IMG/VR virus record: IMGVR_UViG_3300049793_000140
Location: 1 to 52,993 of that record
Strand: one strand, 5' to 3'
From: a virus
DNA: 52,993 nt
The notes below the pieces were generated by a model. The model searched no databases. It worked only from the letters and a program-made list of their open reading frames with translations, and was not told where the DNA came from. Both the position numbers and the translations under genes were made by a program. Shown one piece after another: positions 31,580 through 52,050 of the stretch (position 1 is the stretch's first letter; the number at the start of each line of letters is the position of its first letter).

Positions 31580-31799
31580 GCCGAGAGGTGATCCCTTCTT
31601 CCGTCCCCAGATCCTCCGGCTCGCTCTTGGCCGCTTTGCCTTCCTCTTTGATCGCAGAGTCTCCGATTTTCACAATGCAGAGTTGCCCGTTGGATTTGAG
31701 CTTTAGAGTGCAAATATCCTCGAAGATCTCCCCTTCGTTAAGACCTTCAGGAACGATGTAGTCCGATGGGGTTTTGAATTCTGGATAGGAAGCGCTCAT
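31548..31799 (-). CDS. Small acidic protein of unknown function
   Basis: An 83-residue protein starting with ATG that overlaps the adhesin gene stop by ATGA. It begins MSASYPEFKTPSDYIVPEGLNEGEIF, has a beta-rich middle (DICTLKLKSNGQLCIVKIG) and an acidic, probably flexible tail (EEGKAAKSEPEDLG). Small proteins of this kind are common between structural genes. No family is recognised. Coupling to the adhesin gene suggests a shared function such as assembly or chaperoning. Confidence 0.62.
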   Translation of the reverse strand: MSASYPEFKTPSDYIVPEGLNEGEIFEDICTLKLKSNGQLCIVKIGDSAIKEEGKAAKSEPEDLGTEEGITSRLTEAYRNRAA

Positions 31800-32908
31800 T
31801 GCAATGCGTGATAATTGTATTTGTAGGTCGTAGACCCGGCTAGGCCCAAGGATACCGCATTGTTGATCACGAAATTCGTTGTGGTGCTAGTTACATAGGG
31901 AAGAAAAGTCAAGGCACTTGAAGTAGCGCTTGATGGCCATAATACGACGTAAGGCGCAGTGCTGTATGCCACATTAAAAGTAATAGTGACGATGGCTGCG
32001 TTGACGACGGGGGTCAGCCCCGAATTAATCGTCACCTCGCCGGCAAGGTCGGTGCCAGAAATCGAAGCCGAGGCACCACTTACACCTGATCCTGAATTAG
32101 TCGAAACAGTGGGAACTAAACTCTTGCCCACAAGATGCGTCAAATACACGCCGGTTACATTCGAATTTCCAATCGTCGCTGTGTTATTGCCGTTGCCGAT
32201 TGCCCTTTCCCCAATGACAATTTCATTCGTTCTATCCACCGCAGAAGGAGCGGACAAATAACCTATAAATACATTCGCTTCCCCAACAGTATTACTAAAC
32301 CCTGCTTTCCAACCTAAAGCGGTATTGTTTTTAGCTCCATCTGTCCTAGAGAGCGCCGAATTACCGTTTGCTGTATTATTATTTCCAGTGACAAGAGCTA
32401 CCAAACAATTCAAACCTATAGCATTATTTTCACTTCCAGTTGTAAGTGCAAATAATGAACGATATCCAATCGCAACATTGTTATTCCCACCATTAGCCAC
32501 TTTTAACGACTCGACTCCAAGAGCCGTATTTGCTTGAGCAGAACTTTGAACGCTTAACGAATTCAGTCCTAGCCCGACATCAAAAGTGGTCAAGTAAAGA
32601 CTCGTGTTGGTTGCGTTGAAGCCGAGCCGATTAGTGAAGTTGGAGTACAGAGGGGAATTCCCGAAGATCGTAGCGCTCTGTCGATACGGAAGATAGCCAT
32701 CACTGGGATTGATCGCCGTCGAGGTTGGAACCGATAACTGTCCCGCGCCGTTTACGTATGAGCTTGTATTGCCAGTCAATCCAAGCGAATTAGTGATGGC
32801 CGACAGCGGAGGAACAGCATTCGTCGTGTAGGCATTACGCCGTATCGGAGGAGCCGCAAACGCTGAGAAGGACATCACTACAAACCAGAACCACAAAAGC
32901 TTTTTCAT
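31796..32908 (-). CDS. Sec-signal adhesin with YadA-head-like repeats
   Basis: A 370-residue protein from the ATG at 32908, chosen because it overlaps the upstream stop by ATGA and opens a clear Sec signal (MKKLLWFWFVVMSFSAFA). Earlier in-frame sequence is Trp/Arg-rich and not protein-like. It carries one INPSDGYLPYR..SP module, then roll repeats (NTALGVESL, NNNVAIGYRSL, NNTALGWKAG) ending NEIVIGERAIGNGNNTATIG. This matches the giant fibre almost word for word. The C-terminus is a beta-sandwich. It is probably a shorter trimeric adhesin related to the giant fibre. Confidence 0.8.
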   Translation of the reverse strand: MKKLLWFWFVVMSFSAFAAPPIRRNAYTTNAVPPLSAITNSLGLTGNTSSYVNGAGQLSVPTSTAINPSDGYLPYRQSATIFGNSPLYSNFTNRLGFNATNTSLYLTTFDVGLGLNSLSVQSSAQANTALGVESLKVANGGNNNVAIGYRSLFALTTGSENNAIGLNCLVALVTGNNNTANGNSALSRTDGAKNNTALGWKAGFSNTVGEANVFIGYLSAPSAVDRTNEIVIGERAIGNGNNTATIGNSNVTGVYLTHLVGKSLVPTVSTNSGSGVSGASASISGTDLAGEVTINSGLTPVVNAAIVTITFNVAYSTAPYVVLWPSSATSSALTFLPYVTSTTTNFVINNAVSLGLAGSTTYKYNYHALQ

Positions 32909-33159
32909 TCTGCAATAATGTTTACCCACCCAGTGTTTCCAGTCCCACTCACCTTGTTCCACACACCTCCAAGAGCAGTCGTGTAAACAGACCCTGGACT
33001 TGCTGTGACGACTCCGTCGGGACTTCCTACCCCGAAGTAGGTGCCAGTCCCAGGTCCTCCACCCTGCCCGCCAACACCCAGGTCTACCAACTTCCACAGA
33101 CTGCGCTGTTCGCTGTCGCCGGAAGATGAAGTGTTTCCTTCTGGTAGCCAACTCGGCAT
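32905..33159 (-). CDS. Small PEGN-motif protein
   Basis: An 84-residue protein opening MPSWLPEGNTSSSGDSEQRSLWKLVDL, the third copy of a motif that also occurs twice in the previous gene. The second half is a Gly-rich stretch and a small beta unit (GVWNKVSGTGNTGWVNIIAE). Its stop overlaps the adhesin start by ATGA. The motif resembles short tail-tip docking peptides, so it may help attach the adhesin to the particle. That role is inference. Confidence 0.65.
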   Translation of the reverse strand: MPSWLPEGNTSSSGDSEQRSLWKLVDLGVGGQGGGPGTGTYFGVGSPDGVVTASPGSVYTTALGGVWNKVSGTGNTGWVNIIAE

Positions 33160-33778: not shown

Positions 33779-34969
33779 TCAGTATGGGCATGAGGTAATA
33801 AGATTGCATGATGGGTCACAACGGAGATGGACGAATGCCACTCCACGCTCGGGCGAGGCTGGCATCGGAGCTTCAGCCAATATCCCTCTATGATAGAGGA
33901 TGTTTTTATCCGGGTTGCAACGTCTGTCCTCGATATTTTTCACTTCCCATTCGCCGGCATAGTTCACGGGATCGAAGGTGAATTTGGGCGCGGGATTTGT
34001 GATCGGCCGGGGAATAAGGGAGGTGTAAACTGTTGGATCGAAAATCACGGTTTCTTCATATGGAGCAACCCGATATGCAGGTCGGAGTACGGCCTTTTGG
34101 CCCTTTGAAGCAGACGCCAGTATAAAAGGCGGCACTTCGGTTAAAACGCCGCCCTCGCAAGTGAAGCGCCGGGGATACGGATCGATGACGTGGATGAAGC
34201 CGCTGTAAATTCTCTTATTAGTGAGAAATGGCTTCAGCAATTCATTAGGTGTTGCCCATCTGATGTCTTGCCGGATGTCGGGATTCAGAAAAATGAGGTT
34301 TCTGGATGTTTCCCACGAAGTGAGTAAAGTCAGCACTGGATAGCCATTGTCCGTCGCGAGAGCGCCTTCCTCGGCACCGTCCCTGATCAATTGTGCTGCA
34401 TACCTATCAAGAATTCCCTGAGTGAGAATTGATGTTGGACACCCGGCTGGATATGTGAGTGCGCCAGTTGTCGATTCCGTAGGTGGACACCCGTCTACGA
34501 CAACCTTCGTCTGGCACAAGCGGGCGTAATTATGCCGATAGCGGTTTTCCCACAACAACCGGCTGTATTCGCCGAGGATCTTCGTAATCGCGTTAAGCTG
34601 CTGCATCAGCTCGAACGGACCGCGTAATTGTTCAGCACAGAAGTCCGGGCCTTCCAGAGCTATTCTTTGCATGTTGAAACTGCGGGTCGTCGAAGCAACG
34701 CCAACCTTGGTTACCGGTGGAAGACACATGCCGCCTTCTCCACCGTCCATACTGGATAGAAGAACATCCTGCCACTGTGGTTCTGCATCGGTTGGTGCGG
34801 ATCTCTCGTACGTCAGAACATTCCATGAATCACCCATTCCTTGAGGCACAACGCCTCGTGGTTGAAGACGAATGATTGGTGACCGAGCGAAGTATCTAGA
34901 TCGGATTTCATTTGCCAAATAACGGCCAGATTCCTGGGTCGTTACGGCGGTAATTGCTGTGCAACTCAT
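33779..34969 (-). CDS. Probable major capsid protein
   Basis: A 396-residue protein starting at the ATG at 34969 (MSCTAITAVTTQESG); in-frame sequence further upstream is not protein-like. Position after portal and scaffold, length and the following decoration-type gene all indicate the capsid subunit. The sequence has an N-terminal helical arm, a long central domain (QLNAITKILGEYSRLLWENR) and a Cys-rich C-terminus (RCDPSCNLITSCPY). A segment with DPYPRRFTCEGGVLTEVPPFIL recurs in the small Tat-leader protein at 35165-35497. No family-defining motif is recognised, so the call rests on context. Confidence 0.68.
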   Translation of the reverse strand: MSCTAITAVTTQESGRYLANEIRSRYFARSPIIRLQPRGVVPQGMGDSWNVLTYERSAPTDAEPQWQDVLLSSMDGGEGGMCLPPVTKVGVASTTRSFNMQRIALEGPDFCAEQLRGPFELMQQLNAITKILGEYSRLLWENRYRHNYARLCQTKVVVDGCPPTESTTGALTYPAGCPTSILTQGILDRYAAQLIRDGAEEGALATDNGYPVLTLLTSWETSRNLIFLNPDIRQDIRWATPNELLKPFLTNKRIYSGFIHVIDPYPRRFTCEGGVLTEVPPFILASASKGQKAVLRPAYRVAPYEETVIFDPTVYTSLIPRPITNPAPKFTFDPVNYAGEWEVKNIEDRRCNPDKNILYHRGILAEAPMPASPERGVAFVHLRCDPSCNLITSCPY

Positions 34970-35164
34970 AAAAGACAAAAACGGATTGGTTGAAAATCCT
35001 TGAACGAAACGCACGCGCGAGACGTGGACTTTCGTAGTTTTGTCTCTGGCCGGAAGACTATGTGGCCGATTGCAGTCGGCTCGGGCTGCTACCAACAGAG
35101 CCTAGGATTTGAGGAAGGTCTGGTCGGGACCGGGAGGACCGAAGTTTTTATTCCATCAATCTGA

Positions 35165-35497
35165 TTACGAAAAGTAGCCTTTAAGCTCAGAAGTGTCAAG
35201 TATGAATGGAAACACCTGCCGCATGACTCCGTTCTCTTGGACATACCTTTTTGGATATGGCGTGAAGATTGTCATGGCACCAAGTTTCTCACGCGAGTGC
35301 ACTGAATACTCTTGAATTCCATTTGCGAATAAATAACCCATCTCATACGGAGCATTCACGTATGCAGGATTTATCAATATGCGCGCAAGTGGCTTGCGCT
35401 GAGCCTTCCAAATGCGCTCGTACGTCCTGGCAGGCGGCAGCACTGTGAACCCGAACAAGGCGAGCGCGGAGTTTTTAAGGAAGTTGCGTCGGTTCAT
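35165..35497 (-). CDS. Tat-leader protein with capsid-like segment
   Basis: A 110-residue protein. It opens with a twin-arginine signal (MNRRNFLKNSALALFGFTVLPPA; the RRxFLK motif plus hydrophobic core). The rest contains two segments that match the capsid: NPAYVNAPYE (capsid RPAYRVAPYE) and TPYPKRYVQENGVMRQVFPFIL (capsid DPYPRRFTCEGGVLTEVPPFIL). They are in the opposite order from the capsid. It could be a shuffled capsid fragment or a small exported virion partner. It lies next to a methyltransferase scar. Confidence 0.6.
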   Translation of the reverse strand: MNRRNFLKNSALALFGFTVLPPARTYERIWKAQRKPLARILINPAYVNAPYEMGYLFANGIQEYSVHSREKLGAMTIFTPYPKRYVQENGVMRQVFPFILDTSELKGYFS

Positions 35498-35521: not shown

Positions 35522-35618
35522 TCATAATTTCTCAATCGCAATCTGATACCCACGCATAAGCTCATCGTATTTGCCTTTGTAGATTGCGAGGAAGGCGTCT
35601 ATTCCTGGTCCTGGATTT
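35522..35618 (-). pseudogene. 3' remnant of a related methyltransferase gene
   Basis: About 97 bases match the end of the intact methyltransferase gene at 35803-35899. In frame it reads NPGPGIDAFLAIYKGKYDELM.., then RGYQIAIEKL and a stop, against ..GKYTELMRGYQVAIEKL in the intact gene. Most of the roughly 16 base differences are synonymous, so this is a diverged homologue's 3' end and not a recent copy. No upstream coding remains. It marks a recombination boundary. Confidence 0.8.
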
Positions 35619-35661
35619 ATACTCGCCATGATCTGGAAGCTGAAAGCTCCATAAACACTTT

Positions 35662-35688
35662 CCCCCGCCAGCTTACGACTGGCGGGGG
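35662..35688. terminator. Strong GC-rich hairpin between cassette and capsid region
   Basis: CCCCCGCCAG (35662-35671), a 7-base loop, then CTGGCGGGGG (35679-35688): a perfect 10-base-pair stem. Neither side is followed by a classical U-run (AAAGTG in the leftward RNA), so termination is uncertain. It lies in the 184 bases between the intact methyltransferase and the methyltransferase remnant, which otherwise contain no gene I can support, only a TTCAATTGAA palindrome. Confidence 0.5.
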
Positions 35689-35803
35689 ATTAAATGGGGG
35701 CGAAGTTCAATTGAATGAACACTGCCCCGTTCGAGTGCTTCTAACAGAGTGCGCGGGCAACTAAGGTAAAGTATCGGGCTTTCTGTAGCGAATGTAAAGA
35801 TGT

Positions 35804-36373
35804 TCATAACTTCTCAATCGCCACCTGGTACCCCCGCATGAGTTCGGTGTATTTGCCTTTGTAGATCGCGAGAAAGGCATCTATTCCTGGTCCTGGATTG
35901 TCGAGAGGATTTGGCATATTCTTCCAGAGATAGTCGTCAAAGATCAGGATTCCGCCTGACTTCAATAGGCGCCATGACAGCACAGCATCTTCCAGCACTC
36001 CTTGTGAGCGATGGTCCCCGTCAATATAGACAAAATCGAACAGGATAGAGGCGTCTCGGAGGCCCATCCATGATGGTTGCTTGCGCAATTGTACCCGATA
36101 CTTGAATTGCTCGATGTTGCTCAGAAAGCGATCTTCCGCTCCAGAAACATCCACCTTGAAGTATTCATGATCCTTGCCGCCCTCGAAGTGATCGATGCAA
36201 ACGATCTTCGATGATCCATGCGTCAGAATATTTTCAAGAAACCATACCGTAGAACGACCTTCGAAGGGACCGATTTCCAATGCCCGGATATGCTCCCCGC
36301 CTTTGAACCGTTCCAACAGCGTGGTTAAGCCTGCGATGTTACCGGTAAACCAATCGTATTTGAACTCAGGCAT
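35804..36373 (-). CDS. Class I SAM methyltransferase, Methyltransf_24-like
   Basis: A 189-residue Rossmann methyltransferase. Motif I is LEIGPFEGRST (about residues 32-42), the acidic strand end is IVCIDHFEGG, and the YIDGDHRSQGVLED and GGILIFDDY segments are those of the sugar-modifying Methyltransf_24 group. The neighbours, two glycosyltransferases and an FkbM methyltransferase, suggest it methylates a glycan or a glycosylated virion protein. It follows the 53-residue gene by two bases. A diverged 3' fragment of a homologous gene lies downstream. Confidence 0.87.
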   Translation of the reverse strand: MPEFKYDWFTGNIAGLTTLLERFKGGEHIRALEIGPFEGRSTVWFLENILTHGSSKIVCIDHFEGGKDHEYFKVDVSGAEDRFLSNIEQFKYRVQLRKQPSWMGLRDASILFDFVYIDGDHRSQGVLEDAVLSWRLLKSGGILIFDDYLWKNMPNPLDNPGPGIDAFLAIYKGKYTELMRGYQVAIEKL

Positions 36374-36375
36374 TC

Positions 36376-36537
36376 TCAGTGCAGCCGGCGTTTAACACGC
36401 TCCATAGCTCCGAGTGCCCTCACCGAATCCACCGAAAAGAATCTCGCGATCTCTCCAGCCTTAACAGATGTCCTGCCTGCTTTTCGTAATTGCTTAAGCC
36501 TTTTAAGCACGTCTTCGTCATTCAGTTTTTTTCTCAT
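36376..36537 (-). CDS. 53-residue winged-helix-like small protein
   Basis: An ATG at 36537 overlaps the FkbM stop by ATGA, and the TGA at 36376 lies two bases before the methyltransferase ATG. The product MRKKLNDEDVLKRLKQLRKAG continues RTSVKAGEIARFFSVD and SVRALGAMERVKRRLH. The middle looks like a small winged-helix or helix-turn-helix unit (GEIARFFSVDSVRALGAMERV). Perfect packing on both sides supports translation. Its role in the cassette is unknown. Confidence 0.6.
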   Translation of the reverse strand: MRKKLNDEDVLKRLKQLRKAGRTSVKAGEIARFFSVDSVRALGAMERVKRRLH

Positions 36538-37247
36538 ACGTCAGCATTATGTGGCGACACAAGGATATTGCAAAGTCCTTCCGGCAGCGCATCCAGCGGC
36601 TTGCGATCCCAATCCCCTTCGACAAAGGGTACGCCATATTCAGTTATGACACGCCATAGCATCTCGGCGCCGAGATGGTTAAGGTGAGGATACCTCTCGA
36701 CTTGAACGACTGACTTGTTCTGGCGAAACATCGACATATAGCCGGCGAACAATTCGGCGTCTTGTCCCTCCGTATCGATCTTCACGTAAGCCAGTCGTTT
36801 CTTGAACTTGAAAATATCCAAACGTTCTATGCTCACGATTACATCTTCACCTTCGACCAATCGACCGCCGTTCATTCGAGTCGAGTCATATTTGAATACT
36901 TCCTTGCCCTTCTTCATCCCGACCGCTTTGTTGCGGCGTACGATTGGAGCAAATTGAGGATTTTGAAGTGAGTTCTGGTGTAGAATAGCGTAAGTAGTTT
37001 TGTTCGGCTCCCAGGCGAAGACCTCTCCATTGGCCCCTGTTGCAACGGCCATTGGCAGCGCGGTATCGCCTGTATAGGCTCCTATGTCTACACATGAATC
37101 ACCAGGTGAAATGAATTGAGCCAGCCAATCAATTTGTTTCTCGGAAAACTCCTTGCGGACCTCTTGGGGATGCTTCCATTGATAAAAAACAATCTTTCCC
37201 CATTTTCCAAGGTCATGCTCTGACCATTCTGATGGATATTCAGTCAT
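36534..37247 (-). CDS. FkbM-family methyltransferase
   Basis: A 237-residue FkbM-type O-methyltransferase (Methyltransf_21). SAM-binding motif I is CVDIGAYTGDTALPMA (about residues 52-67), followed by VFAWEPNKTTYAIL, and the diagnostic YVKIDTEGQDAELFAGY motif. FkbM enzymes usually methylate sugar hydroxyls in polysaccharides or glycoconjugates. It overlaps the next genes on both sides by four bases, so it is translated with the cassette. Length is normal. Confidence 0.9.
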   Translation of the reverse strand: MTEYPSEWSEHDLGKWGKIVFYQWKHPQEVRKEFSEKQIDWLAQFISPGDSCVDIGAYTGDTALPMAVATGANGEVFAWEPNKTTYAILHQNSLQNPQFAPIVRRNKAVGMKKGKEVFKYDSTRMNGGRLVEGEDVIVSIERLDIFKFKKRLAYVKIDTEGQDAELFAGYMSMFRQNKSVVQVERYPHLNHLGAEMLWRVITEYGVPFVEGDWDRKPLDALPEGLCNILVSPHNADV

Positions 37248-37480
37248 TCGTCATCATCGCGTTGTCCTATTCGCGTGGCTTCTTCTTCTTTTATGAGCCA
37301 ATCCCGCACATGACCAACGCGAGCGAAGTAATTCCCGCAGCCCGAATTCAGATGCACCGTTCCGCGTTCCTCGCCTTCCTCGTGTTGTGATACGAATATG
37401 GAAACCGCGTCATAATATTCGCCTAATTCGGAAGCATGTTTTTTGATCGCTTCCAGTTCCTTAGAATCTCCAGTTCTCAT
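37244..37480 (-). CDS. Small protein in the glycan cassette
   Basis: A 78-residue protein from the ATG at 37480, one base after the upstream stop; an ATG at 37504 would overlap more. It reads MRTGDSKELEAIKKHASELGEYY, then SIFVSQHEEGEERGTVHLNSGCGNYFARVGHVRDWLI, and ends acidic. A single short sandwich-like unit is likely. It overlaps the FkbM start by ATGA. No family is recognised; the tight packing in a modification cassette suggests an accessory role. Confidence 0.6.
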   Translation of the reverse strand: MRTGDSKELEAIKKHASELGEYYDAVSIFVSQHEEGEERGTVHLNSGCGNYFARVGHVRDWLIKEEEATRIGQRDDDE

Positions 37481-37481
37481 T

Positions 37482-38177
37482 TTACCACGGCTTTGGTCCT
37501 TCAAACTTGGTTTTGTGTCCGGGTGCCCATGTTTCTGGGATCACAAATCCAGGCGGCAATTCTTTCACTAGCTCCAGACCATTCTTGAGCCGGTCATAGT
37601 TGTGATATTTCAAAGCTACCTCCGCTGTTGGTTTGCACTTTCCATAATGGAAGACATGACGCTTCGATTTCAGATATCCGCCATTGACCCGAGAGCACAC
37701 CTTCCCCTCTCGGCAAAGCTGCTCATGCGTTGCGCCTGAGTAATAGAATTCCTGCCCGAGCGGGAACCCTCGGGCCTGGTAATCCGGGTAGAGGCTTGGA
37801 TCGTAATGCTCGAAATCGTCTACAAATTCATATCGCGGGTAAAGAAACGCCATCGCCATCGACCCCACCGCTCCAAATTCCAACCGCAACATATCCAGAT
37901 CGGACTTAAGCATGGCCTCGTCAGAATCGAGCATAAGAAGATACGACCCGCCGATGTGCTCGCTCACCTTTATCACCGCATTGCGCGCCTCAGCCCAATT
38001 GTTACTGAAGGCTATTTCGGCTACGATAGCATTGGTCGCATCCAAGATTTCCTTGGTGTCATCAGTGCTCTCGGAATAACCGACGACGGTGTGATCAAAA
38101 TAGGGCATCAAGAGCGGCAAAATGCGCGGCAGCAAGAATGCGTCGTTGTGCGCCAACATCCCGAGAATTACTTTCAT
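37482..38177 (-). CDS. Family 2-type glycosyltransferase
   Basis: A 231-residue GT-A glycosyltransferase from the ATG at 38177, which overlaps the upstream stop by ATGA; an ATG at 38186 is also open. The N-terminal nucleotide-sugar strand is MKVILGMLAHNDAFLLPRILPLL, followed by GYSESTDDTKEIL, and the DxD-type metal motif is YLLMLDSDEAML. The middle segment (AMAFLYPRYEFVDDF..) and ATHEQLCREGK are typical of phage GT2 proteins. The acceptor is unknown. It is the second gene of the cassette. Confidence 0.87.
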   Translation of the reverse strand: MKVILGMLAHNDAFLLPRILPLLMPYFDHTVVGYSESTDDTKEILDATNAIVAEIAFSNNWAEARNAVIKVSEHIGGSYLLMLDSDEAMLKSDLDMLRLEFGAVGSMAMAFLYPRYEFVDDFEHYDPSLYPDYQARGFPLGQEFYYSGATHEQLCREGKVCSRVNGGYLKSKRHVFHYGKCKPTAEVALKYHNYDRLKNGLELVKELPPGFVIPETWAPGHKTKFEGPKPW

Positions 38178-39970
38178 ACAGGGCAATGAAATTCCCGAAG
38201 TATTTCGATAAGGGTGTTCGCTGAGCGCTCCACAGTAAACTCTCTTGCTGAGGCTGCCGCCATTTCGGATTTATTTTGAAGCTCCACGCGATTCTCGTAA
38301 GCCTTGCGCATTTGAGCAGCCATGCTTTCAACCAGTGGCTTTGCATACACGCCCATGCTTTCGTAGATGCCTTCAGCAGGAACTAGCGTGAATCCTACTG
38401 CGTAGCCATTCTCGCGGCTGAAGAATTCACACACACCTCCGAAGTCTACACCGATCACGGGCCTTCCCATTGCCATCGCTTCGTGCTGATGTCTGCCCCA
38501 CCCTTCGGCTGCGGAGCCGGACACAAAAACGTTAATCGACCTGTACCATTCAACCAATTCTTTCTGGTCGATGTAACGCTGCAAGACTTCGATCCGGGAA
38601 TCCTTGAAATCATCAACCGGTGGATCTTCCGAGAATGATTTCACTTTCAACTTAACATTTTTCTCCCTCGGGAAGGCGAGCCTGAAAGCCTCGACGACGA
38701 TATTGAATCCCTTTCGAATTCCACCACTCGCGGTTTTGGCCGCCGTGCCAAATACCAACTTACCGCTGACATCATTGACAGCCAAAGGGAACACTTCAGG
38801 GTCGAATCCCATCGGGCAAATACGGATTGGCGTATCGACGCCGCAGGAAGAAAAGGAAGATGCGTTCCAGGCATTCGGAGTAATCGCCACCTTGCACCGG
38901 TTGAAAACTTCCACCGCTTTTGTCCGGTTCATGTCAATCTTGGATACTAACCTCGCGGCCTCCCACATCGAATACATGGCATGGTATTTGTTCCCGAGCA
39001 CCAAATTGGCTGGCTGAATCACGCACGGGTAGATTACAAGATCCCAAGGATGAGGATTCGACTGTCCCCGAATGCACCGTTTGAGTTCCGGTGTGATGGC
39101 CCCATGAATCTCGTTGTAGCTTGCCGGAAATATTTGGACATCGTAATCCATTTTCAGAAACTCCAGAGCGATCTGTGAACTCAAAATGCCATAGCCGCTT
39201 GAGCTATCTATGTGCGCTATAAGCGGGATGACCTTTTTGACCTTGGGTTTTGGAGGCGATATGAACAGTCGCGAGAGTAATCCCTTTGGCTTGGCTTCGC
39301 GCAGACGGTCAATAAGCGAACCATCCTTGCAGCGATGGAAGAACACCACGCCCGGCCTGATGATTCTCTGAACGTCTTGCTGCGTATCGAAAGTCTGACT
39401 GTCGCCGTTTTGAAAGGCGACCTGTTGAATCAGATGATTGGCCCTGTGGCAGCGATGCTGCACGTCTTTCCATGCAACGATGTCGAACGGAGAAGCTCGG
39501 CAAAGCATAGCGTTCACCGAGTAGGTTCCGACATCAGGCGGATACACTCCGACGCCGTTCATGTGCGTGCCGTTACCTGAATCTTCCTCGACGATGCAAC
39601 CCATGAATGGCTGCTTGGCATCGGCATATTCATCTCGCAGGGTTCCGTACCAGCCTTTCGCAATCGGGCAACTGTCAGATTCCCACCAGAACCACGGTTG
39701 CTGATGCTTTACGATGCCTCTTGCTGCTGATTGAAAAGCCCAGTTTTGAGGGTGCGGCCATGCGGGATTACCGGCCCAATCCCCATAGCACGATTCGGAT
39801 ATCTTGTTAAATATGCCTTTGGCTCTTTCGACAACGCATGTCGGCTTGAACCCGTGCGGGTGAGAAATGACTGCATGTGCGTCAACAGTTCCATCAAGCT
39901 CAGCGAGCCAATCCAGGTTTTTAAGAACCAAGGCTTCGTCTTTAGCGCAGACCGGAATTACGACTACCAT
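38174..39970 (-). CDS. Two-domain glycosyltransferase (GT-A-like plus GT4-like)
   Basis: A 598-residue protein. Residues about 1-240 form a GT-A-like domain of the type found in phages (PQNWAFQSAARGIV, then WFWWESDSCPIAKGW, an acidic metal-type motif). Residues about 250-598 form a GT-B family 4-like domain (HIDSSSGYGILSSQIALEFL, ITPNAWNASSFSSCGVD) with the classic EGWGRHQHEAMAMGRPVIG motif that holds the two catalytic-region Glu residues. A fusion of two transferases may build a disaccharide in one pass. It is the first gene of the cassette and overlaps the 42-residue gene by 7 bases. Confidence 0.88.
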   Translation of the reverse strand: MVVVIPVCAKDEALVLKNLDWLAELDGTVDAHAVISHPHGFKPTCVVERAKGIFNKISESCYGDWAGNPAWPHPQNWAFQSAARGIVKHQQPWFWWESDSCPIAKGWYGTLRDEYADAKQPFMGCIVEEDSGNGTHMNGVGVYPPDVGTYSVNAMLCRASPFDIVAWKDVQHRCHRANHLIQQVAFQNGDSQTFDTQQDVQRIIRPGVVFFHRCKDGSLIDRLREAKPKGLLSRLFISPPKPKVKKVIPLIAHIDSSSGYGILSSQIALEFLKMDYDVQIFPASYNEIHGAITPELKRCIRGQSNPHPWDLVIYPCVIQPANLVLGNKYHAMYSMWEAARLVSKIDMNRTKAVEVFNRCKVAITPNAWNASSFSSCGVDTPIRICPMGFDPEVFPLAVNDVSGKLVFGTAAKTASGGIRKGFNIVVEAFRLAFPREKNVKLKVKSFSEDPPVDDFKDSRIEVLQRYIDQKELVEWYRSINVFVSGSAAEGWGRHQHEAMAMGRPVIGVDFGGVCEFFSRENGYAVGFTLVPAEGIYESMGVYAKPLVESMAAQMRKAYENRVELQNKSEMAAASAREFTVERSANTLIEILREFHCPV

Positions 39971-40118: not shown

Positions 40119-40337
40119 TTACATCTGTAGCATTCTGATCAGAGTAGCATGAGCCTGCATGTACTTCATAAATTTAGAATTTGTCTCGTTGCGTAATTTG
40201 AAGTAAGCAGCGACATCTGGAGGCCAATAGAAATCCGGCGTGTGGACAATGTGAAACTCGAAATAGCACTGCCGATGATGCATTGCTTGCATCTTCGGGT
40301 CCAAATCGGGCAGGGAATAAATCTCCTCAGCAATCAT
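40119..40337 (-). CDS. Small protein following the scaffold
   Basis: A 72-residue protein from the ATG at 40337, which overlaps the scaffold stop by ATGA; an upstream ATG at 40343 is also open. It reads MIAEEIYSLPDLDPKMQAMH, then FEFHIVHTPDFYWPPDVAAYFKLRN and a helical end. No family is recognised. Coupling to the scaffold suggests a head-assembly accessory, which is inference. Confidence 0.6.
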   Translation of the reverse strand: MIAEEIYSLPDLDPKMQAMHHRQCYFEFHIVHTPDFYWPPDVAAYFKLRNETNSKFMKYMQAHATLIRMLQM

Positions 40338-41506
40338 TGCCATACTCCAGCTTTCTTTGCCTTGGCCACCACAATTTCACCCATGCTCATACCTTCGAAT
40401 TGTTTTTCGTCATCAACAGTCGATTCGTTTTCCGTGCCCCCTTTCAAGTCAGGTCCTCCAGCTTTTAGGCTTTCCAGTTCCTCCTTGAGTGCTTTGTTTT
40501 CTTTCGCGAGCGCCATTTGATTCTTGAGCAGTCCAGGCGCGGCCGCTGACCAAAGAGCAGCTTTGGAAAGCTGATCGGCGCTCAGATTCAAGTTGAGGAT
40601 GTTGCGTGCAGTTTCAACACGTTGAGCGACTTCCGCATTGTGGGCTTCGTCCCCATCCTTTTTCTGGAATAGTGCCAGTCCATTGTCGGGGTTGCTCCAT
40701 TTCTGAAGTGTGTCTTGGAACGTGCGCTCGAATTCTTCTGCTCGTCTTTTACTATCCCTCTCCTTAATCTGATCATACAGCTTAAGATGATCATCTGGCT
40801 TATCGAGTGCCGATTGCCTCTCGAAGTTTATCTTTCGGATGTCTACCAGCACCGGTCCAAGTTCAGTTTTCTGAAATTCATCCAGATTGTCCAAAAGCCC
40901 TCGGGCGATCTGGTTCCTGAAATCGCCATCAGGCAGTTGGGCGATCTTTTTTAGCGTTTCGGCGTGCTCTTGTCCTACAATCTGCTGCCCGATCGCCAAG
41001 GCAGTATTCCTGCGGTCTTCGAAATGTTTCTTGAATTCCGGCAGTCGGTCGAGCGCCACTTCCTTTATTAACCGGGTAAGCTCATCGTTGCGCTTCTTCA
41101 CTGAATCGAATTCATTACGTTCAGTTTCCCACGACTTCCACTTCTCCTGCTCTTTGGCGTACTTTTCCTGCCCGGCTTTGAACTTTGCGTTTTCCTCTTT
41201 GAGGCGAGCGCGTTCCTCGTTGACTTCCTTCCACTGCGCGGCTCTTGCGGGAGGTTTGATCTCCGCTTCGGACTTACCCGCATCCGTCGTGCCCGCGTCC
41301 AAGGTATCCCGGCTTTCCGCCGGCGCGGGCACGATTGGAGGTTTACCCGAAGGTGGCTTAAATTCTGTTGGTCGTGCTTCGGCGTATGCCTTTTGAACCA
41401 TCTCCTCCATCGAAGTACCGAATGGCTCGGGATTTTCGCTGCCGTTTGTTTGCGCCTCGGTCGAAATTATCGGCGGGGCTGATGATCTAAGAATTGGGTC
41501 TGCCAT
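40334..41506 (-). CDS. Probable scaffolding protein
   Basis: A 390-residue, highly charged helical protein. After a disordered Pro-rich N-terminus it has long Lys/Glu coiled-coil stretches (about residues 88-160 and 220-270), a conserved-looking helical section (VALDRLPEFKKHFEDRRNTALAIGQQIVGQEH), and a C-terminal coil (LKNQMALAKENKALKEELESLKAGG). The short basic tail (IVVAKAKKAGVWQ) would bind capsid, as in other phage scaffolds. Position between portal and capsid supports the call. No protease motif is present, so it is an assembly core, not a maturation protease. Confidence 0.78.
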   Translation of the reverse strand: MADPILRSSAPPIISTEAQTNGSENPEPFGTSMEEMVQKAYAEARPTEFKPPSGKPPIVPAPAESRDTLDAGTTDAGKSEAEIKPPARAAQWKEVNEERARLKEENAKFKAGQEKYAKEQEKWKSWETERNEFDSVKKRNDELTRLIKEVALDRLPEFKKHFEDRRNTALAIGQQIVGQEHAETLKKIAQLPDGDFRNQIARGLLDNLDEFQKTELGPVLVDIRKINFERQSALDKPDDHLKLYDQIKERDSKRRAEEFERTFQDTLQKWSNPDNGLALFQKKDGDEAHNAEVAQRVETARNILNLNLSADQLSKAALWSAAAPGLLKNQMALAKENKALKEELESLKAGGPDLKGGTENESTVDDEKQFEGMSMGEIVVAKAKKAGVWQ

Positions 41507-51121: not shown

Positions 51122-51319
51122 GTGAACCGCACTTCTATGAATCCTGAACACAAACACAAAATGGGCCGTCCGCTGCTTCCAAGCGGCGAGGCGGCGGACT
51201 CACAAATACAATTGCGCGTCACGCGCAAGCGCAAGAGCGCGTATGTGGGGGCCGCGAACAAAAAGAAGCAGACGCTCGCCGCATGGTGCTTTGAGGCGCT
51301 CGATAAAGAGAGCGGCTAA
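51122..51319 (+). CDS. Small ribbon-helix-helix-like DNA-binding protein
   Basis: A 65-residue basic protein started by GTG, 9 bases after the previous stop, with AAGGAG close upstream; an ATG at 51137 is an alternative. The core QIQLRVTRKRKSAYVGAANK, then KKQTLAAWCFEALDKE, fits a beta strand followed by two helices, the ribbon-helix-helix fold of small phage repressors. It ends three bases into the cytosine methyltransferase stop on the other strand. It is a candidate ligand of the palindrome at 50240-50261. Confidence 0.62.
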   Translation: MNRTSMNPEHKHKMGRPLLPSGEAADSQIQLRVTRKRKSAYVGAANKKKQTLAAWCFEALDKESG

Positions 51320-52050
51320 TGAATCAAAACGGTATGCTCAGGACTGCGCATCCTGACCGCTCTTGCAATTACTCGGCCCATTGGGAGCGGGACTCCGTTC
51401 GCTATCACCTCAAAAAGACCGGCCTTTCGTAGTGGGGAGTCAGTCAGGAAGTCTTCGGGCAAGCCTTGCGCTTCGAGCGCATCGGGAAGCCCCTTGATTG
51501 TTGATGTGCTGCGCGGTCTTTGCCGCAGTGCGTCCCATCGCAGATTGCGGGTCGTAACCGTGTTGTGTTTCGGTTCGCGGACCAGGCACGGCATATCCAG
51601 GTGCAGTTTTGCGCCTGTGCGGGTTCCGAAAGATATTCGACGGAGTCGGCGTTGATCTGCTCCACAGTGGTTAGCGTTGACCATTTGAGCGTGGACGATG
51701 TAGCCCTTGATCGAGGGGATTGGCGCCCGCCTCACATTTTCCATCACGAACCACTCCGGTTGTGCCTCTTGGATGCAGCGGACGTATTCCGGTATCAGAT
51801 CCGGTTGCACTGTCTGGCCGCGAGCCTTGGCGATGTTGGAAGCAGACGACCACCACTTGCACGGCGGACCTCCTATCACACCACGGAAGACTCCCGCCGG
51901 CGGATGGAAGCGGTGAACGTCGCCGCCCCAAATTCTATCAGGTCCGCGCACGACGCAGAATCCCTCCAACTCGAACGCCATGTCCAGCAGACCGATTCCC
52001 GGAAAGATGGACAGGACCAATTCGGGATCCGAATGCTCAAAGTCTCGCAT
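51316..52050 (-). CDS. C5 cytosine DNA methyltransferase
   Basis: A 244-residue DNA cytosine-5 methyltransferase. Motif I is SIFPGIGLLDMAFELEG (about residues 14-30), the catalytic PC motif is GGPPCKWWSSA (Cys64), then MENVRR (motif VI, Glu104) and QRRLRRISFGTR (motif VIII). It is short compared with typical restriction-linked enzymes and has a small target-recognition region. It is the last gene of the leftward recombination operon. The usual phage use is to protect its DNA from host restriction. Confidence 0.92.
   Translation of the reverse strand: MRDFEHSDPELVLSIFPGIGLLDMAFELEGFCVVRGPDRIWGGDVHRFHPPAGVFRGVIGGPPCKWWSSASNIAKARGQTVQPDLIPEYVRCIQEAQPEWFVMENVRRAPIPSIKGYIVHAQMVNANHCGADQRRLRRISFGTRTGAKLHLDMPCLVREPKHNTVTTRNLRWDALRQRPRSTSTIKGLPDALEAQGLPEDFLTDSPLRKAGLFEVIANGVPLPMGRVIARAVRMRSPEHTVLIH

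Follow-up and report, generated by a model that had tools for sequence, protein, structure and literature searches.

A coupled glycosyltransferase-methyltransferase operon at the presumed scaffold-capsid junction of a phage, a candidate module for virion decoration

The window analysed here is a whole virus record of 52,993 bp (IMG/VR record IMGVR_UViG_3300049793_000140). On its minus strand, TerL is followed by a presumed portal gene, a presumed scaffold gene, a 74-aa ORF and a cassette of six genes (39970-35804), after which come, in the direction of the genes, a hairpin, a methyltransferase remnant (the scar), an ORF with a Tat-signal-like start, a noncoding leader and the presumed major capsid gene. 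The cassette consists of a 598-aa glycosyltransferase with two predicted domains (38174..39970), a GT2-like glycosyltransferase of 231 aa counted from its ATG (37482..38177), a 78-aa ORF (37244..37480), an FkbM-family (Methyltransf_21) methyltransferase of 237 aa (36534..37247), a small basic ORF of 53 aa (36376..36537) and a Methyltransf_24 methyltransferase of 189 aa (35804..36373), all encoded on the minus strand and all with intact frames. Taking the likeliest ATG starts, the successive intergenic spacings are -4, +1, -4, -4 and +2 nt, and gaps of 148 and 306 nt flank the coupled unit. An earlier note on this DNA had described such a unit of six coupled genes lying between scaffold and capsid; its genes, families and coupling were borne out, and so was its placement, with the names of both flanking genes presumed.

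Both methyltransferases score above their Pfam cut-offs, the Methyltransf_24 enzyme (PF13578) with E 1.8e-19 and 71 bits against a gathering cut-off of 26.3, and the FkbM enzyme (PF05050) with E 2.4e-7 and 31.5 bits against 22.7; the latter also matches the methyltransferase family phrog_8156 (3e-16). For the GT2-like protein the Glycos_transf_2 match (PF00535; E 1.7e-4, 22.0 bits) falls below the Pfam cut-off of 23.3. The protein also matches phrog_13126, a beta-1,4-glycosyltransferase family, with E 2.8e-6, and its PDB sequence leads, SunS and GmaR, are very weak and at noise level (both E 0.04). The C-terminal half of the 598-aa protein belongs to Glyco_trans_1_4 (PF13692; E 4.6e-11, 43.6 bits, above the cut-off of 27), and also matches the glycosyltransferase family phrog_2170 (9e-27). 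Its N-terminal region (aa 1-240) has a W-E-x-D motif in common with a 350-aa phage protein of distant relatives (24% identity, E 8e-12); when a structure model of this region (pLDDT 61) is compared with the PDB, glycogenin gives the best fold matches and LgtC is among the top ones, and in BFVD the model matches viral glycosyltransferases. The protein is predicted to combine a putative N-terminal GT-A-like domain, whose model is of moderate confidence, with a C-terminal GT-B/GT4 domain, a division that the earlier note had missed. Counting both of these domains, the cassette carries three predicted glycosyltransferase domains together with the two methyltransferases. Family searches gave zero matches for the 78-aa and 53-aa ORFs; a homolog of the former (32%) lies at a different location in the nearest relative (L024:20777-20971). 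Among known phages, we found no DNA match for the region and no protein match for the presumed capsid and portal, and the cassette enzymes had weak matches only. Close viral relatives of the GT4, GT2 and FkbM enzymes, the portal and the Tat-signal-like ORF were also sought, and none was confirmed.

TerL has a profile match (phrog_2). The names portal, scaffold and capsid rest on gene order and conservation, because no convincing Pfam or PHROG family was found for these three proteins. The presumed scaffold (390 aa, 40334..41506, minus strand) is 23-24% identical to the ORF preceding the capsid gene in distant relatives, and the presumed major capsid protein (396 aa, 33779..34969, minus strand), named by gene order, has 72% identity to one relative (L003) and about 33% to twenty more. 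Its structure model is poor (pLDDT 28), a profile made from the capsid alignment found nothing above noise in the PDB, and a search of sequenced genomes for capsid relatives that might point to a host or prophage found none. The cassette does not have the interval to itself. It shares it with the 74-aa ORF (40119..40343, minus strand), which overlaps the scaffold end and is uncoupled from the cassette by the 148-nt gap, with the Tat-signal-like ORF (110 aa, 35165..35497, minus strand) and with the noncoding leader before the capsid gene (34970..35164, minus strand). After its Tat-signal-like start, the 110-aa ORF continues into two segments that resemble the phage's own capsid protein in swapped order, aa 39-57 resembling capsid residues 292-310 and aa 73-107 resembling residues 257-290 (for the latter, 0 of 1000 shuffles aligned as well). 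The 72% relative has a counterpart (L003:795-1028), and the fusion point is common to both. About 143 nt of the leader can be aligned with the nearest relative and are well conserved (window about 35037-35179, minus strand, against L003 about 1143-1278); shuffled sequences fold as well as this conserved leader does, and no Rfam match to an RNA element was found in the cassette region. An internal signal-peptide-like start (MKKLLWFWFVVMSFSAFA) occurs in the protein encoded at 31796-33151 (minus strand), which matches phage virion structural families, and likewise in some tail-region ORFs of distant relatives. At the left end of the window, a YqaJ/ERF recombination gene pair is encoded at 592-1991 on the minus strand.

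In most distant relatives the junction occupied by the cassette is empty. Seventeen of them, some being near-duplicate records, show the junction, and in 16 the distance from scaffold to capsid is 206-214 bp; the comparison for an empty site proposed in the earlier note thus came out in favour of an insertion, and relative to these distant relatives the cassette is one. The seventeenth carries a GIY-YIG/NUMOD3 homing endonuclease at the junction (L021:1447-2073), and in the 72% relative (L003) the capsid gene is directly preceded by a Methyltransf_24 gene different from that of the window, together with a 68-aa ORF and a Tat-signal-like ORF, beyond which the contig ends. Being empty in most distant relatives, and holding an endonuclease in one phage and a Methyltransf_24 gene in another, the scaffold-capsid junction is evidently a place that accepts cargo.

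The age of the insertion is a separate matter. The hairpin (12-bp stem, 35661..35689, minus strand), 3' of the last cassette gene, is more stable than any of 200 shuffles (z = -5.9) and is possibly a weak terminator. The scar (35522..35620, minus strand) is a truncated second Methyltransf_24 allele consisting of the last 32 codons and the stop; it corresponds to the final 99 nt of the intact Methyltransf_24 gene, agreeing at 83 of 99 nt and 29 of 32 residues, this tail being its closest match (the best other relative found reaches 56%). Both features are real, but instead of flanking the cassette, as the earlier note had it, they are confined to its capsid side. That note had taken them to fit a recent acquisition, a reading that we find unsupported and set aside: by GC, GC3 and codon usage the cassette genes lie within the range of the other genes in this genome, the scar is an old allele that differs at 16 of its 99 bases, mainly at synonymous sites, and a Methyltransf_24 gene is already present at this spot in the nearest relative. 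Of the 16 differences, 11 fall at third codon positions (P 0.004), a bias consistent with past purifying selection. The scar is the end of a distinct allele that was once under selection, and it speaks for recombination between alleles over a fresh duplication.

The association of these enzymes extends beyond the window. Relatives of its Methyltransf_24 enzyme occur in 113 viral stretches. In a scan of 50 records, a PF00535 match (at E 0.001) was present in 24, and in 18 this match lies within 2 kb of the methyltransferase, against 6.4 expected under random placement; the 50 include related, non-independent records, so that the associated probability is indicative only. Pairing of Methyltransf_24 with a glycosyltransferase is thus repeated in viral contigs, and 18 of 58 distinct loci include a TerL-like gene no more than four genes away. 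The closest viral relative of the enzyme (L026, 49% identical, contig IMGVR_UViG_3300025910_000017) ends an operon with overlapping frames in the order glycosyltransferase, methyltransferase, GT2, Methyltransf_24, i.e. the same enzyme types with Methyltransf_24 again last. This operon belongs to an unrelated phage and, unlike that of the window, sits a few genes before a terminase-like ORF; its second methyltransferase also differs from the window's, the record having no FkbM match.

Distant relatives of the phage itself carry comparable cassettes beside primase. One has GT-A-like, GT-like and FkbM genes (L111:343-2465), and another a sulfotransferase-like gene with three methyltransferases (L108:5183-9141). 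The primase-side cassettes in the records of L016 and L020 carry glycosyltransferase-like, FkbM or Methyltransf_24 cargo in related phages, and one GT-A-like ORF among the primase-side genes resembles the N-terminal domain of the window's long glycosyltransferase (28% in alignment A3), whereas the genomic site and the gene sets of the L016 and L020 cassettes differ from those of the window. A GT-A-like gene with a basic C-terminal tail, 76-87% conserved, occurs in three stretches of distant relatives (L109:13194-14246, L112:360-1343 and L113:344-1561), in two of these records directly 5' of a DnaB-like helicase gene.

What, then, might the cassette do? Our preferred reading, to which we give about an even chance, is that of a late-expressed module for virion decoration. 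While the head is being assembled, the two glycosyltransferase proteins would make a short glycan attached to one virion protein or several, probably the capsid or some other late protein made in abundance, and the FkbM and Methyltransf_24 enzymes would O-methylate this glycan. On this view the lineage took up the module as modular cargo at the scaffold-capsid junction, and a later exchange between two Methyltransf_24 alleles left the scar. In favour of this reading are the tight coupling of six genes, four of them for enzymes, the empty junction in 16 of 17 distant relatives, the GT2 genes near viral relatives of the Methyltransf_24 enzyme, the operon of its closest viral relative, and the Corndog-type precedent. 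Position had led the earlier note to suggest modification of virion proteins or of the host surface. These do make up the best class of explanation, but the argument from position is weaker than it first appears, since similar cassettes lie next to primase in distant relatives. The same cassettes, together with the difference between the window's enzymes and those of the Corndog-type phages considered below, weaken the case for virion decoration, and inspection of the presumed capsid C-terminus by eye, where no glycosylation-prone tail was recognised, also counts against it, as do the GT2 match below the Pfam cut-off and the moderate confidence of the GT-A model.

The main rival, second to virion decoration and in our view possible though rather unlikely, is that late in infection the enzymes alter the surface of the host cell, be it polysaccharide, LPS or S-layer glycan, e.g. 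to block adsorption of competing phages or re-adsorption of progeny to debris. Enzymes of the GT4, GT2 and FkbM families typify loci for cell-surface polysaccharides. Function may not depend on position, and host-surface modification therefore stays in play: cassettes away from the head genes suit a substrate other than the capsid, and distant relatives include a WxcM/FdtA-like gene with a neighbouring ORF as well as the sulfotransferase-like cassette. Against this, we saw no flippase, polymerase, acetyltransferase or nucleotide-sugar synthesis gene in the cassette, and methyltransferase-glycosyltransferase cassettes near head genes have, in another phage group considered below, a reported role in the virion.

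Transfer onto a small molecule or a host protein such as pilus or flagellum, unconnected to virion assembly, appears improbable. It is suggested by the two PDB leads of the GT2-like protein, SunS being a prophage glycosyltransferase, but these leads are at noise level, and we recognised no gene for a peptide substrate in the operon. Hypermodification of the phage DNA, with a base hydroxylated, glycosylated and methylated against restriction, we regard as very unlikely, because neither a TET/JBP dioxygenase (PF12851, one profile) nor a thymidylate-synthase-family hydroxymethylase (PF00303) was found in the genome. To our knowledge, moreover, GT4, GT2 and FkbM enzymes are unusual in such pathways, and here the cassette lies among head genes. 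What speaks for it is a C5-cytosine methylase encoded at 51316-52050 (minus strand), the position of a GT-A-domain homolog immediately ahead of a DnaB-like helicase gene in distant relatives, and the viral precedent of glycosyltransferases that hypermodify DNA (as referred to in PMC12619734, its reference 46). That the unit is a decaying insertion devoid of function, as the truncated methyltransferase remnant beside it might suggest, is the least probable reading, given six intact and tightly coupled frames, codon usage like that of core genes and the mostly third-position changes in the scar (11 of 16, P 0.004).

If the virion is indeed the target, phage capsid glycosylation would reach beyond the actinobacteriophages and would have arisen with unrelated enzymes, and such cassettes would have landed among head genes more than once. 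The pairing of Methyltransf_24 with glycosyltransferases, often near terminase genes, would then provide a searchable mark for decoration modules in uncultured phages. We also entertain, as a decidedly doubtful extension, that the junction is a long-lived cargo site at which interchangeable glycan and methyl modules evolve with the adjacent capsid, giving a lineage-specific methylated capsid glycan made by enzymes unrelated to those of the mycobacteriophages.

The nearest parallel is found in the Corndog-type mycobacteriophages, in which the portal and protease genes enclose those for an O-methyltransferase, two glycosyltransferases and a putative N-acetylglucosaminyltransferase; each of the four proteins was detected in infected cells and none was identified in virions, and the enzymes were proposed as modifiers of capsid and tail tube (PMC4351075). 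Later papers (PMC11600133 and PMC12363180, both citing Freeman 2023) report that the capsid and tail tube are indeed modified by them. For our comparison Corndog gp35-38 were represented by their Catdawg equivalents 33-36. The Catdawg record gives the order portal, O-methyltransferase, three glycosyltransferases, protease and capsid, with overlapping frames, and its O-methyltransferase matches TylF and Methyltransf_24. No significant similarity was found between the four enzymes of the window and the Catdawg cassette proteins, and the match of the methyltransferases to Methyltransf_24 is the only family that they share. The cassettes also differ in their exact place, at the scaffold-capsid junction in the window and from portal to protease in Corndog, and the window, unlike Corndog, has a predicted fusion of GT-A and GT-B domains, along with an FkbM enzyme and two small ORFs. 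In both the window and Corndog (cluster O), a methyltransferase and several glycosyltransferase genes form one coupled operon, and in both it lies among head-assembly genes, the flanking genes of the window being named by gene order and conservation. The cassette therefore resembles the Corndog type in architecture, while the sequence comparisons lend no support to membership by descent. It is an operon of a known kind, similarly placed in Corndog-type phages and not detectably related to theirs, of which this phage adds another example.
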